DNA of 64,000 bases from Prosthecobacter debontii. GTDB lineage: Bacteria > Verrucomicrobiota > Verrucomicrobiia > Verrucomicrobiales > Verrucomicrobiaceae. Below, piece by piece: positions 8,076 through 22,962 of this stretch. Position 1 is the stretch's first letter; each line of letters starts with the position of its first letter. Position numbers and translations under genes: made by a program. A model generated the notes under the pieces. It saw nothing but the letters and a program-made list of their open reading frames with translations. It searched no databases and was not told the DNA's origin. Location of the stretch: positions 1-64,000 of the forward strand of contig NZ_FUYE01000019.1 in NCBI RefSeq assembly GCF_900167535.1, read 5' to 3'.

Positions 8076-10724
8076 ATGCGTTGCCTCCCCCGCAGATTGC
8101 TCAAAATGGTCGCCAGCTTTCTGGCGCTTCACCTCAGTCTGTGGGCCGGAGTGAATCCCACTCGGCTCATGGTGGACCTGTCACCCACGCCAGACACGGT
8201 CATGCTGAGTGCCTTTGATCTCAGCATCGTGGAGGCCGATGCGAAGGTGGACCTGGAAGCGCAGCAGACCTTGGGCAACAAGGTGCTGGCACGAGTGAAC
8301 GTTTTTGAGCTTCCGCCAAGATCGCGAGCTATCGACATCGCTAAAAAGATCGGCGTGCCTACTCTGGAGGCGACCCAAGCAGGCTGGACACGGCTAGACG
8401 CCACGCACCCTAACTGGGTGCCTCTGGTGGTGCGTGAGATGGTGCAACATGCCGCGGAGCAGGGTTTCGATGGATTCGTCCTGACCGGCCTGGAAACCAT
8501 CAGCCAGGATGCCGAGCGCGCGGCCTGTTTGAAAGCCATTCAAGAACTGGATCGCATCTATCCTGACAAACAACTGATCCTCGAAAACGGTTTGGATCTC
8601 GTGGCCGAAGGCCGTCGTTTTCTGGATGGCGTGCTGTTCATCGGGCGGGCTGAAAATCCAGCGGTGAGAGATCAGCGCATCCGGGAGGTGAAGCGTCATG
8701 GCCTCCAACCTCTGGTGGTGGAGTCCTTACCCGAGACAGTCACGGATGAGGAGATCGCCCGGCACACCGAGCATTTTCGCGCCATGGGTGCGGTTCCCTT
8801 TTTTACCACTCCTGATCTCCAGGGCACCCATCTGGGGCCACTGGTGGAGGTCACGCGTCATGTGGTCGTGATCCACTCGGGAGCCGCATCGGAGACCTTC
8901 ACCGCTCATGTTCTGCAGGGATCGCTAGAGTGGTTAGGCTGGCAGGTGAGCTATGTGGATGCAGGGAAAATGCAGCAGCCGGAGCAAGTGCAGGAATGGC
9001 AGCAAGCCGATGCGCTTATTCTGGACGCCAACCTCCAGGCTCAGCCCCAGCAGCAGGGTTTCTTGCTCGATGCTGTGCGTGCCCTCAAGGAACGCCGAGC
9101 CCCGCTGCTGCTGACCGGTGCCCCTTGGGGCAATGACGCCGACTTTTCCCAATGGTCTCAGACCCTAGGCCTACGTGGCAACGGGAGAGCCCTCCCAGTC
9201 ACAGGCAAGGCCAGCATCAAGCCCATCGCCTCCCCCTGGTTGCATCAGGCGGGCAGTATGCGCGCACGGACCCTCGGTTTTCGTGATCTGCGTGCCCCAG
9301 CGGGAGCCTCGGTCCTCAGCGCCATCGAAGCCGATGGCATTCTTTTCGATCAAGTTTTTATCACGTCATGGGGTGGAGTGTGGCTGGATGCCATGGCGAA
9401 AGAAGCCGGGCCACAAATCGCCCCGCTGCCATTTCTCGAACATTGGTTAGGCCGCTATTCCCGCGTTCCCGTCATGGATGTAGCCAGCCAAAATGGTCGC
9501 CGTTTGCTCATTCCGGTCGTGGATAGTGAGGGCTTTACCCAATCCACAACGCTTCAAGGACTGCCGCTTGCTGCAGAGGCATTGACCGAGCGACTGCTCT
9601 CACGCTACTCGCTTCCGTTCACCGTGGCCGTGTGTGAAGGAGATCTGCGAGGCACCAATCCAGGTCTGGACCCACGGGATACGCTGCGCTATGAAGCTGC
9701 CGCACGGGCGATCTTCTCACTGCCTCAGGTGCATGCCGCAGCCGGCAGCCTGAGCCGCCCCTCGAGCTGGGAAACCTGCCCGGAGATGGAGCGCGAGGTC
9801 GCAGGCACCATGGCCTACGTTCATCGCCGCCTGCTGCCTGCAGGACGCCATGTGGACCTGATGCTGTGGCCTCAAGGAGCGCGGCCTACGGATGAAGCCG
9901 TGGCGTTTAGCCATCGCATGGGGGTGGAAAATGCATGGATCACCGCCACCACTACCCTGCCTGGCACATCGCCAGCTAAGATGGCGCAAACCTGGGGTCA
10001 GCATCAGAGTCTCCTCACGCTCACACCTTTACCTCATCAAGGCGCCCTGAGGGCAGCCGAATTTATCGCCCACGAAGAGGCACAAAACGCCAGCCGCTGG
10101 ATGCAACCGGTGAATGCCATCTTCAGCTTTCGTGATGCAGCAACAGAGGAAAGGCTGTGGGAAGCTGAAAACATTCTCGACTGGTGTGCCTCCCAGCCTC
10201 TGCATGCCATCACACTGGCCGAGCACGCCAAGATCGTTCGCGATGCCGCCCGCACACGCCTGTTTGAGCAAGGCCCTGGGCACTGGATTCTGGTCAATGC
10301 CGGGCAGGCACGCACCCTTCGCCTACCTGTGAGTGCCGGCATTCCAGATCTGGACCGCAGCGTCGGTCTGGCCGGTTACAGCGTGCGTGGCCCGGATCTT
10401 TACATTCATACGTTAGGCCGTCGCCGCACCGAGTTGGTGCTAACCCCGCAGGGCACGCCCACTCATCTCCGACTCACGTCCGCCAGTGGCAAGCTCCGGT
10501 ATGATGAAGCGGGCCAGCAGCGCGCCCTGATTCAGGTGGCGGACCTGCGTCCGGTCGAGCTCAGTTTTGCAGGGATTGCCCCCGGGTCGGTCTGCCAAGT
10601 CTTCACCACCGATCACCCGCAATTCCTCACCGCAGATTCGCGGGGGCAGATCGAAGTCACGGTCCCAGCGCAAAGCGCCGTGCGTGTGCAGGTGCTCAAC
10701 TCCCCACAAGCGGCGATGCGATGA
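8076..10724 (+). CDS. PelA-like exported protein (GH114-like plus deacetylase-like), motifs degenerate
   Basis: An 882-residue protein with signal peptide MRCLPRRLLKMVASFLALHL. Residues 30-270 resemble the GH114/TM1410 barrel of PelA, and about 460-640 resemble the PelA deacetylase (VPVMDVASQNGRRLLIPVVD, then LLPAGRHVDLMLW). PelA trims and deacetylates the Pel exopolysaccharide in Pseudomonas. Here key positions differ: the barrel has GFVLTGLE where FLDTLD is expected and LENGLD where NRGFE is expected. The deacetylase has VVDSEGF for DGDGF, and AAGSLSRPSS where the His-box SHTYSHPF is expected. The start 8076 (ATG) is preferred over GTG at 8067. The downstream gene overlaps by 4 bp. Confidence 0.65.
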   Translation: MRCLPRRLLKMVASFLALHLSLWAGVNPTRLMVDLSPTPDTVMLSAFDLSIVEADAKVDLEAQQTLGNKVLARVNVFELPPRSRAIDIAKKIGVPTLEATQAGWTRLDATHPNWVPLVVREMVQHAAEQGFDGFVLTGLETISQDAERAACLKAIQELDRIYPDKQLILENGLDLVAEGRRFLDGVLFIGRAENPAVRDQRIREVKRHGLQPLVVESLPETVTDEEIARHTEHFRAMGAVPFFTTPDLQGTHLGPLVEVTRHVVVIHSGAASETFTAHVLQGSLEWLGWQVSYVDAGKMQQPEQVQEWQQADALILDANLQAQPQQQGFLLDAVRALKERRAPLLLTGAPWGNDADFSQWSQTLGLRGNGRALPVTGKASIKPIASPWLHQAGSMRARTLGFRDLRAPAGASVLSAIEADGILFDQVFITSWGGVWLDAMAKEAGPQIAPLPFLEHWLGRYSRVPVMDVASQNGRRLLIPVVDSEGFTQSTTLQGLPLAAEALTERLLSRYSLPFTVAVCEGDLRGTNPGLDPRDTLRYEAAARAIFSLPQVHAAAGSLSRPSSWETCPEMEREVAGTMAYVHRRLLPAGRHVDLMLWPQGARPTDEAVAFSHRMGVENAWITATTTLPGTSPAKMAQTWGQHQSLLTLTPLPHQGALRAAEFIAHEEAQNASRWMQPVNAIFSFRDAATEERLWEAENILDWCASQPLHAITLAEHAKIVRDAARTRLFEQGPGHWILVNAGQARTLRLPVSAGIPDLDRSVGLAGYSVRGPDLYIHTLGRRRTELVLTPQGTPTHLRLTSASGKLRYDEAGQQRALIQVADLRPVELSFAGIAPGSVCQVFTTDHPQFLTADSRGQIEVTVPAQSAVRVQVLNSPQAAMR

Positions 10725-21078: not shown

Positions 21079-21795
21079 ATGATGCTAAATCTTCCAGAAC
21101 CTCAGACCGGTCTTAGTGTCTCCCCCTGGATGGATGCACGGCCCAAAGGCCCCTTCCACCTTAGCGCTTTCCTGGCGGATGCCGCCGAGCGCACGCCGGA
21201 AACCACCCTCACGGTGGACGGCATGGAACTCACCTACGAGCAAGCCTGGATGAACGTCCTGCGCATCGCGACTTGGCTTCAGCAGAACGGTGTAAATCGT
21301 GGCGACAAAGTCGTCACCGTTCTGCGTCACAGCCCGGATTTGCAATTGATCACCCTCGCTGTGGCTCACATTGGCGCTGTGATCTCCGTAATCTCCCCGC
21401 AGATTCGTCAGCCCGCTTTCCAAGAGATCCTGGAAGAAGCTGAGCCGGTGTGCATTTTCCTCGAGCGCACAAGCCGCCATCTCAAAGCTGTGGCGGACAA
21501 CATCCTCACCGTCTGGCTGGGCGAAGGCCTCAACGGCGGTAACTGGGATGAGGCTGACTTCAGTGAAGTGATGGAAACTCGTCCTGCCTGGGGCATGCGT
21601 TTCCCAGGTAAGTCTGAAGATCCTGCCTTCCTGGTGTTTTCTGACCGAGCCAACGAAGGCCATCAGCGCGGTGTGCTCCTCTCTCACGATAAAGTGCGCA
21701 GCATCCTCTCCCATCAGACCACGCCGAGCCGAGACATCCTCTCCGTCTTTGAAAGCGCCATGGATGAGATTGAGGCCCTGCCTGCAGCCGCGTAA
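21079..21795 (+). CDS. AMP-binding family N-terminal fragment, stand-alone
   Basis: A 238-residue protein matching only the first part of acyl-CoA synthetase/adenylation enzymes: ETTLTVDGMELTYEQAWMN, then NRGDKVVTVLRHSPDL and LAVAHIGAVISVISPQI. Where the adenylation P-loop (YTSGTTGxPKGV) is expected it has VFSDRANEGHQRGVLLSH, so the Ser/Thr/Gly loop is gone but the following GV--SH survives. The protein ends about 50 residues later with its own stop; the AMP- and acyl-binding core and C-terminal lid are absent. No frameshifted remainder is seen downstream. It may be a decayed gene or a small protein with a new role. A hairpin at 21830 follows. Confidence 0.7.
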   Translation: MMLNLPEPQTGLSVSPWMDARPKGPFHLSAFLADAAERTPETTLTVDGMELTYEQAWMNVLRIATWLQQNGVNRGDKVVTVLRHSPDLQLITLAVAHIGAVISVISPQIRQPAFQEILEEAEPVCIFLERTSRHLKAVADNILTVWLGEGLNGGNWDEADFSEVMETRPAWGMRFPGKSEDPAFLVFSDRANEGHQRGVLLSHDKVRSILSHQTTPSRDILSVFESAMDEIEALPAAA

Positions 21796-21829
21796 CATCG
21801 TCCGCCTCACTATTCGAGGCTCCTTTAAT

Positions 21830-21863
21830 CGCCCAAGCTTCCACTCGTGAGGCTTGGGCGTTT
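21830..21863 (+). terminator. Putative intrinsic terminator
   Basis: CGCCCAAGC and GCTTGGGCG pair across a loop of about 13 bases and are followed by a short TTT run. It lies 35 bp after the stop of the AMP-binding fragment. The T-run is weak. Confidence 0.55.
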
Positions 21864-21890
21864 GCTTGGCGAGGATAAGGGAGGTTTCAA

Positions 21891-21927
21891 AAAGTTGCAA
21901 AGTTGCCACCCTATACACGGCAACTTT
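21891..21927. repeat. Palindromic repeat 1, type A (one right half-arm missing)
   Basis: Left arm AAAGTTGCAAAGTTGCC has two GTTGC units, while the right arm has only one GGCAACTTTT. A 9 bp stem forms (AAAGTTGCC with GGCAACTTT) around a loop containing CCTATA. It is the most degenerate type A copy. GTTAGGCAAA follows about 35 bp later, as it does after repeat 6. Confidence 0.75.
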
Positions 21928-21988
21928 TCGGGCTTTTACCGTTCACCGTTGAAATACAACCTGTTAGGCAAAATGACGCATACCAGGG

Positions 21989-22037
21989 AAAATGTTTCCA
22001 TGTTTCCACCCCTAGACATGGAAACTTGGAAACATTT
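21989..22037. repeat. Palindromic repeat 2, type B
   Basis: Left arm AAATGTTTCCATGTTTCCA pairs with the right arm TGGAAACTTGGAAACATTT with a single mismatch around a loop ACCCCTAGAC. The layout is that of type A (two GTTxCC units then two GGxAAC units), but T replaces G and A replaces C at paired positions. Confidence 0.85.
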
Positions 22038-22085
22038 CAGGGCTGGCTTCTGATCGAATTTTTACGCTCCGTTAACACCCCATCG

Positions 22086-22133
22086 CAAAGTTGCCGAGTT
22101 GCCATAGCTAAGCACGGCAACTCGGCAACTTTG
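22086..22133. repeat. Palindromic repeat 3, type A
   Basis: Arms CAAAGTTGCCGAGTTGCC and GGCAACTCGGCAACTTTG are perfect 18-base complements around loop ATAGCTAAGCAC. The spacer between units is GAG/CTC here instead of AAG/CTT in repeat 4, another paired change. Confidence 0.88.
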
Positions 22134-22369
22134 AGTCCTCATCACTGTCTGGTGAGAGCTCGTGGACGTATTCGAACAACCCTGCGTAGGCCTTAGCGAA
22201 TATATGTGTCATTATGTCACTATTAAACGCTAAAGAGGGTATGAATGATATGAAGAGATACCCACAATCACATCATTTGTTAGCTATCATTGAATGTAAG
22301 GTGCTGGCACTTGGAGAGCCAGACAACCTCATTCAATCCTTCTGATCGACGACCGCTGAAGGGAGATCG

Positions 22370-22417
22370 AAAAGTTGCCAAGTTGCCGTGCTTAGCTACG
22401 GCAACTTGGCAACTTTT
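22370..22417. repeat. Palindromic repeat 4, type A
   Basis: Arms AAAAGTTGCCAAGTTGCCGT and ACGGCAACTTGGCAACTTTT are perfect 20-base complements around an 8-base loop GCTTAGCT. A T follows the right arm, giving five T in a row. This is the longest perfect stem of the set. Confidence 0.9.
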
Positions 22418-22496
22418 TCACACGTCTATCGAGGGGCGTTGAGACGGTGGGTTATCCACTCCACGAAGGTCAATCAGGTCCTCCATGACCGTGAAG

Positions 22497-22535
22497 AAAT
22501 GTTTCCATCCCTAGACATGGAAACTTGGAAACATT
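22497..22535. repeat. Palindromic repeat 5, type B (one left half-arm missing)
   Basis: The left arm has a single unit AAATGTTTCCA and the right arm has two, TGGAAACTTGGAAACATT. The loop TCCCTAGACA is nearly identical to that of repeat 2, so the two type B copies share descent. Confidence 0.8.
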
Positions 22536-22588
22536 GACATGCCGAAATCCCGAGCTGGCTTTCAGACAAGCTTGAGGCATCTCCTGAC

Positions 22589-22633
22589 AAAGTTGCAAAG
22601 TTGCCGTGTATAGCTGGGCAACTTTGCAACTTT
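22589..22633. repeat. Palindromic repeat 6, type A
   Basis: Arms AAAGTTGCAAAGTTGCC and GGCAACTTTGCAACTTT are perfect 17-base complements around loop GTGTATAGCTG. The first unit is GTTGCA with TGCAAC opposite, a paired change relative to GTTGCC/GGCAAC. GTTAGGCAAA follows about 35 bp later. Confidence 0.88.
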
Positions 22634-22887
22634 TCAGATCGAGCCCATCTCCATCGAAACACATCCGGTTAGGCAAACTGAAACAAGGCATCGACAGCTT
22701 CACACAAATCGGGTCTCGATCAGCACCCACGGGCTTGTTTTGATTTCAGGTGTCTCGCCGGGATTTCGTGCCTTCTCGCGTTAAACCCATCTCATAGGAT
22801 CGGGCGAGCTCACCACGGAACCCCGCTTTTGTAGAACAAGGCTGATCTGCGCTCGCGTGGGGCTTTATAAGCCAGAGCGCCTAAAAA

Positions 22888-22962
22888 TGGTGCACGGAGA
22901 GGGATTCGAACCCCCGACCAACTCGGTGTAAACGAGCCGCTCTACCACTGAGCTATCCATGC
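22888..22962 (-). tRNA. tRNA-Val (TAC anticodon)
   Basis: On the minus strand a full cloverleaf folds: acceptor GCATGGA pairs with TCCGTGC (one G-T pair), the D arm is GCTCAGTGGTAGAGC, the anticodon stem GCTCG/CGAGT holds loop TTTACAC, and the T arm has GGTTCGAATCC. Anticodon TAC reads GUA and other Val codons. The 3' CCA is encoded. Confidence 0.95.

Follow-up and report, generated by a model that had tools for sequence, protein, structure and literature searches.

What is a stack of six palindromes doing at the 3' end of a tRNA gene? The question is raised by a window of 64,000 nucleotides of Prosthecobacter debontii DNA (contig NZ_FUYE01000019.1, positions 1 to 64,000), in which a sequence-only reading had described six palindromes of two sub-families at 21891-22633, with paired base changes in their stems. 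All six are present, and we have followed them through the rest of the genome, related bacteria and viral contigs.

An ordered stack of palindromes in extra DNA beside tRNA-Val

A complete copy consists of two tandem 6-base boxes per arm, four per palindrome, which read GTTGCC (type A) or GTTTCC (type B) and stand two bases apart within an arm around a core of about 12 bases that contains CTA; P1 and P5 each have only three of these four boxes (Table 1). The perfect arms of 17-20 bases previously described for three copies are those of P3, P4 and P6 (18, 20 and 17 nt, respectively), and the paired changes that had been listed, namely G/T within the box, AAG to GAG in P3 and GTTGCA/TGCAAC in P6, are likewise there. 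What had not been described is the pairing of the copies with one another, in which P3 and P4 form an inverted core and the direct pair P2/P5 and the inverted pair P1/P6 lie outside it. The first 47 nt of P4 (22370-22416) are identical to a copy at C1:484713-484759.

Table 1. Features of the window and genes of palindrome-bracketed cassettes in other loci.
Feature	Position or locus	Strand	Remarks
AMP-binding-family gene, left border	21079-21795	+	238 aa; PF00501, 5.5e-21
Extra DNA with palindrome stack	21796-22887		1,092 nt, ~1,080 more than in five relatives
Palindrome P1	21891-21929	+	type A, right arm incomplete; inverted partner P6
Palindrome P2	21990-22037	+	type B (GTTTCC); direct partner P5
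Palindrome P3	22086-22133	+	type A (GTTGCC); inverted partner P4
40-nt motif	22193-22232	+	between P3 and P4
Palindrome P4	22370-22417	- (relative to P3)	type A
Palindrome P5	22497-22536	+	type B; one box missing from left arm
Palindrome P6	22589-22633	-	type A, outer boxes GTTGCA; inverted partner P1
tRNA-Val(tac)	22888-22962	-	extra DNA begins at tRNA 3' end
Cassette gene	L022		TIR-pentapeptide
Cassette gene	L021		DMP19; no PADLOC match
Cassette gene	L061		HNH_2; PADLOC HNH 2e-80
Cassette gene	L067		Fic; PADLOC PDC-S04 3.8e-31, SoFic 3.3e-21
Cassette genes	L119		AAA ATPase and partner; PDC-M31A 1.7e-109, PDC-M31B 2.3e-70
Cassette gene	L110		NOV_C protein; PDC-S36 9.5e-101

Three comparisons confirm that the six palindromes are real and exclude chance. 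In the 6.29-Mb genome, the degenerate pattern GTTKCCNNGTTKCC-N-GGMAACNNGGMAAC matches at 11 sites and its reversed control at 0, the 11 falling into four clusters (that of the window, on C19, and those on C1, C9 and C14). Hairpins with a score of at least 13 number five in the real window, four of them within the palindrome cluster, and are absent from mononucleotide-shuffled DNA (97 kb, one shuffle). Finally, 19 boxes crowd into the 1,092-nt intergenic stretch, compared with 1.0 per kb in the remaining window.

The 40-nt motif between P3 and P4 was found in the 48 genomes of the genus, with up to 3 mismatches, only in the window and inside the matching pair at C1. It overlaps the 60-nt stretch of lowest GC, which starts at 22199 and whose GC of 0.30 is on a par with the lowest 0.1% of flanking windows. 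Inside the C1 pair there is also a stretch (L020 ~8366-8640; C1:484365-484640) that is repeated on several contigs of a relative, G034, and is apparently a separate element inserted between the palindromes.

The DNA that carries the stack is extra. The gene at its left border adjoins tRNA-Val in six relatives, and in five of them the distance from the gene's stop to the tRNA 3' end is 9, 11, 12, 12 and 15 nt, as against 1,092 nt here; in the sixth, the tRNA is reversed and lies 142 nt away from that gene. The extra DNA extends past P1 and P6. No duplication of the tRNA end or other att-like repeat was found at the far side of the window insert, tblastn gave no match in the 64-kb window to the Rep protein described below, and an Rfam scan returned the tRNA only. 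Since the window thus has neither a rep gene nor a detected att duplication, its copies may be inert. In empty-site comparisons at C1 and C14, the two flanks were never found together at short distance.

The boxes of one copy largely agree in identity

The paired changes had been taken to indicate that pairing itself is kept, as RNA or DNA hairpins. The changes stand, but that inference is not supported. Among 53 copies, whose selection by the palindrome pattern biases them towards paired arms, the boxes that face each other across the stem agree in 53 of 53 cases at the outer position and in 36 at the inner, which is left unpaired in the other 17. Box combinations that do not pair agree as well, two of them in 50 and the other two in 39 of the 53 copies. 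Shuffles favour pairing over random columns and cannot separate pairing from shared box identity. With two unpaired combinations agreeing in 50 of 53 copies and inner paired boxes in 36, covariation was dropped as proof of selection for a hairpin. Box identity appears to be largely common to all boxes of one copy, as expected of the repeated binding site of one protein, and stem pairing therefore need not be the cause: where all boxes serve one protein, paired arm changes need not mean RNA or DNA hairpins.

The palindrome follows a rep gene in three phyla

The sub-families described earlier belong to a dispersed family, with further copies in the same genome and in relatives. Exact copies occur in 10 of the 115 genomes searched (its own, eight others of the genus and one of another genus), while a covariance model, R2, has matches at E <=0.01 in 15 of the 48 genomes of the genus, some of them single and weak, with 25 matches per genome at most when both strands are counted. 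Among stretches with the pattern in named GTDB contigs, 16 of 18 belong to contigs titled Verrucomicrobia, Verrucomicrobiaceae or Prosthecobacter, and the remaining two to one Deltaproteobacteria and one Nitrospirae contig. Viral contigs contained no instance of the exact palindrome pattern.

Several variants of the design occur. In one palindrome (L064 4125-4210), an arm is expanded by several extra tandem copies of the 8-base box unit. The same layout is also built from GGTTCAC/GGGTCA-type boxes (L065 4582-4631, L077 319-368 and L142 154-253), in most cases around a TA-rich centre such as CCTATATATAGG; those of L065 and L077 adjoin members of the GTTKCC family, and such palindromes may be where a second Rep acts. 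Near a Y1 transposase gene lies another palindrome, 68 nt long and with ACTGCC boxes (L144 257-324).

The palindrome of C9 and those of the Deltaproteobacteria and Nitrospirae contigs come after the stop codon of a gene for an AAA_25 ATPase, the Rep of this report. A tblastn search for Rep over 48 sources (the window, the palindrome loci and three GTDB contigs) found homologs in ten, and in all ten, from three phyla, the core of the palindrome begins no more than about 40 nt past the rep stop codon. These loci include the Deltaproteobacteria and the Nitrospirae contig, both of which had been found by DNA pattern only. In four of them (L022, L115, L086 and L102), further boxes lie beyond the palindrome. 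Relative to rep, the palindrome has a different polarity in L115 and an ambiguous one in L102 and L086, and in the Prosthecobacter-group loci rep lies outside the palindrome pair.

Rep is a homolog of AAA_25 (RepA-like) helicases with a C-terminal HTH-like region. Pfam confirmed AAA_25 in the three Reps scanned, one per phylum; among solved structures, the Rep profile matches the RepA helicase 1g8y best, its C-terminal part has a weak match to a transcriptional regulator, and in L086, L102 and L115 the C-terminus is matched by PHROG HTH or DNA-binding families. PHROG primase/helicase families are matched as well; primase families match L086, L102 and the gene that precedes rep in L069. In other loci, a primase before rep or fused to it is suggested by weak similarity or by eye only; at C9 (L022), the preceding gene has no Pfam or PHROG match and resembles a primase only weakly. 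A terminase small subunit is encoded near the L086 palindrome, and Pfam identified an integrase in L102 only. Searches of phage and plasmid records by protein returned remote AAA_25 matches and, on a Nitrobacter plasmid, a single partial match of 46%.

The C9 Rep of the window's own genome (L022 5907-6974) has GTTTCC boxes behind its gene and makes a candidate partner for the type B copies; no Rep was assigned to this genome's type A boxes. A co-variation between the HTH of Rep and the boxes (Arg after SKWA with GTTGCC boxes) seemed suggestive on inspection and was set aside, n being too small and the other phyla not fitting.

Viral Rep relatives fetched by protein alone

Because the ten Rep loci had been fetched for their palindromes, an independent test was made on viruses. 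With an alignment of the ten Reps (A2) as the query, 56 viral loci were retrieved on protein similarity alone, of which 55 had enough sequence; single-protein scans of viral contigs had returned no Rep relatives, which the alignment scan then found. We asked for a hairpin with a score of at least 10 within 250 nt of the stop together with a 6-mer occurring at least 7 times within 400 nt of it, thresholds that were set after 34 of the viral loci had been seen. This combination occurs downstream of 14 of the 55 viral rep genes and at none of the 298 ends of other genes in those loci; the 14 amount to 13 distinct loci, two being identical downstream of rep, and the other 41 relatives lack it. Positives make up 9 of the 20 relatives whose match covers the HTH-like region and 5 of the 35 others, and for the 20 HTH-covering relatives the Mann-Whitney P value is 1.2e-6 for the hairpin and 2e-11 for the repeated boxes.

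The viral boxes differ from GTTKCC (CGCAAC, GGGACA, CTTGCA and others), and the layout of two boxes per arm recurs, with a CCTA core in several. In two viral loci, L179 and L181, in which an integrase looks present by eye, inverted pairs of tandem-box palindromes stand behind rep, 286 and 152 nt apart, distances to which the P3-P4 spacing of 236 nt is comparable. Clearly inverted partners were seen in these two of the eight viral palindrome pairs aligned, and not clearly in the other six.

The loci thus have boxes directly 3' of rep and the same layout, with other boxes, behind viral Reps. We read the palindromes as probable Rep-binding, iteron-type origin elements and the window as a Rep-less stack of them, and put the probability of this reading at roughly three in four. 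Rep binding and origin function are the best reading because the palindromes occupy the same position 3' of rep as the origin of PICIs.

Inverted partners and the transposon alternative

Most partner palindromes in relatives are inverted and bracket short cassettes. For 85 palindromes in the 31 loci with at least two copies (13 single-copy loci of 44 being left out), there are 37 reciprocal best partners within a locus, of which 29 are inverted, 7 direct and 1 a tie. The inverted pairs are not independent, as ten come from one orthologous hotspot in eight species and three from another, and a count nearer to independence is about 18 inverted to 6 direct. Among 25 pairs chosen by hand, mostly for opposite polarity, 24 are inverted, and partners have a similarity of 0.90, compared with 0.71 for shuffled ones (0/2000).

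Matching inverted ends around cargo are also what one would see if the palindromes were the terminal inverted repeats (TIRs) of non-autonomous transposons (MITEs, some with cargo), moved by some transposase and with Rep only as a shared vehicle. The excess of inverted partners and their similarity both fit such elements, as do the existence of insert-free sites, the common interior motif of two pairs in the window's own genome and the fact that similarity mostly ends near the palindrome ends. At the window insert itself, however, a target duplication was looked for and none found, and the extra DNA reaches outside the outermost palindromes; the cassette open frames listed, which were partly scanned, contained no recognisable transposase. 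Transposon ends would, moreover, leave the fixed place behind rep in three phyla and in viral loci unexplained, and we regard this alternative as unlikely.

Terminators, REP-type palindromes and attC sites

It is distinctly unlikely that the copies act as bidirectional transcription terminators or insulators where acquired genes, rep included, end. Many do have a stem preceded by A-runs and followed by T-runs, and the copies next to rep sit directly after its stop codon, but most copies of the mixed sub-family have no T-run, further boxes lie beyond the hairpin behind rep in four loci, the same box serves in three phyla, and it is box identity, not pairing, that is best kept.

A RAYT transposase gene had been suggested as something to look for, and the association was sought in 37 Y1 loci, drawn from 171 Y1_Tnp matches counted in ten genomes; about 1.5 kb on each side of these genes contained 0 matches to the palindrome model. 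Spread of REP/BIME-type palindromes by RAYT (Y1) transposases is thus very improbable here, even with palindromes in inverted pairs, 10 Y1_Tnp matches in the window's own genome and, in the passages of PMC3733652 drawn on, long TIRs on record on both sides of RAYTs. The copy number is low (at most 25 matches per genome on both strands together), inspection of the 8 nt beside the boxes (alignment A1) showed no conserved GTAG or CGTC tag, and one Y1 gene has a different REP-like family of its own. This RAYT-like gene of the same genome (L037 667-2535; G000:C13 near 66633) stands amid six copies of another palindrome, GCCCAGGGTT...AACCCTGGGY, a classical-looking REP family unrelated to that of the window. 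Integron attC ends read RYYYAAC ... GTTRRRY, and attC sites were ruled out by inspection, as the boxes read GTTKCC inward, the opposite layout.

Cassettes and hotspots

Judged by their protein matches, some of the cassettes between palindromes encode candidate defence proteins (Table 1); that defence genes are enriched in them is an impression. PADLOC had no match for a 235-aa protein of L061 or a 182-aa frame of L106, Pfam gave nothing above cut-off for L062, L074 and L108, and many short cassettes, that of the window included, have no recognisable gene. In L119 (3323-6586), the palindrome-bracketed pair of AAA ATPase and PDC-M31B genes adjoins an HNH gene. The hotspot to which L119 belongs holds an HNH gene, a NOV_C gene or the AAA pair, in three species.

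At hotspot 2, the distance between the flanks is 41 nt in G004 and ~2-3.6 kb in the species with palindromes. But ~0.8-0.95 kb also separates them in four palindrome-free species (G008, G036, G017 and G011), so insertion at this site is not peculiar to palindrome-bearing ones; the palindrome-free loci (L131-L134) contained no similar palindromes and two unrelated hairpins. The outer palindromes have an identity of 96% (5 ends) and 95% (6 ends) between species, values biased upward because 5 of the 16 outer ends, which are of other types, were omitted (both of G022, both of G047 and one of G027); in the 40-nt windows next to them, identity falls to 53-63% at one end and to 50-85% at the other. 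The hotspot 2 loci of the eight species yielded no Rep homolog, and such conservation without Rep points to use in trans or to homogenisation between copies.

A proposed mechanism

As far as its sequence tells, the window cluster is genuine: an ordered stack, lying in inserted DNA, of orphan palindromes that look like origins of a Rep replicon family. We propose that each palindrome would be an iteron cluster bound by the C-terminal HTH-like region of Rep, and that a palindrome, sometimes with the further boxes, would form the origin at which Rep starts replication, the helicase step presumably being carried out by the AAA_25 (RepA-like) Rep itself. The replicon served may be a phage, a phage satellite (PICI-like island) or a similar integrated replicon. 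The window stack, in DNA inserted at the 3' end of tRNA-Val, would be a remnant of such a replicon or an element dependent on one, and could be used by a Rep acting in trans. An AT-rich interior is not a general part of the design: L077 and L074 have no unusual GC dip, and viral L179 has 67% GC between its palindromes.

Orphan origins might bracket cassettes for a purpose, with the Rep of an infecting phage or an induced satellite firing them in trans and thereby amplifying or mobilising the cassette, or being titrated by it; we think this rather unlikely. Were it true, phage replication itself would raise the dose of defence, and the gene-less window would be a decoy or a minimal dependent replicon; functional orphan pairs could couple the replication of an invader to the copy number of host defence genes. 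The tandem-box palindrome just 3' of an AAA_25 rep gene offers a readable signature for likely phage or satellite origins, and such origin-like sites appear to persist in chromosomes without their initiator.

Comparison with known systems

Among the matches listed from the open-licence PMC literature, we recognised no description of a GTTKCC palindrome element. Among the closest known systems are the PICIs, in which, according to the passages of PMC6092414 consulted, a primase gene and rep are followed immediately 3' of rep by the origin, two sets of iterons flank an AT-rich region, and interference genes, sometimes with terS, lie nearby. The likeness to this pri-rep-ori order of PICIs and SaPIs is the probable iteron-type origin immediately 3' of rep, in 10 of 10 rep loci; it fails for the window cluster itself, which has no rep. 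P3 and P4 flank a dip in GC to 0.30, as the iteron sets flank an AT-rich region, whereas the palindromes of L077, L074 and L179 do not. The present family differs in that each palindrome arm has its boxes in tandem and the core contains CTA, rep is missing from most of the Prosthecobacter-group palindrome loci examined, and cargo lies between two palindromes. A whole PICI, with integrase, att and rep on one island, is not what the window contains.

The PLE, a phage satellite of V. cholerae, likewise has an iteron origin that an initiator (RepA_N) can drive in trans during phage infection, as passages of PMC7145576 describe; the PLE initiator belongs to a different family, not predicted to be a helicase or primase, and the PLE is one island, whereas here the putative orphan origins are dispersed. 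REP, BIME and REPIN elements and TIRtrons are also extragenic palindromes, often in inverted pairs; the present family differs from them by its low copy number and by having no tag and, in the loci examined, no link to a RAYT. P4/P2-type hotspots, in the part of PMC9122126 drawn on, resemble those described here in that defence cargo is swapped at one phage or satellite site, but here the swapped cargo is bracketed by origin-like palindromes.
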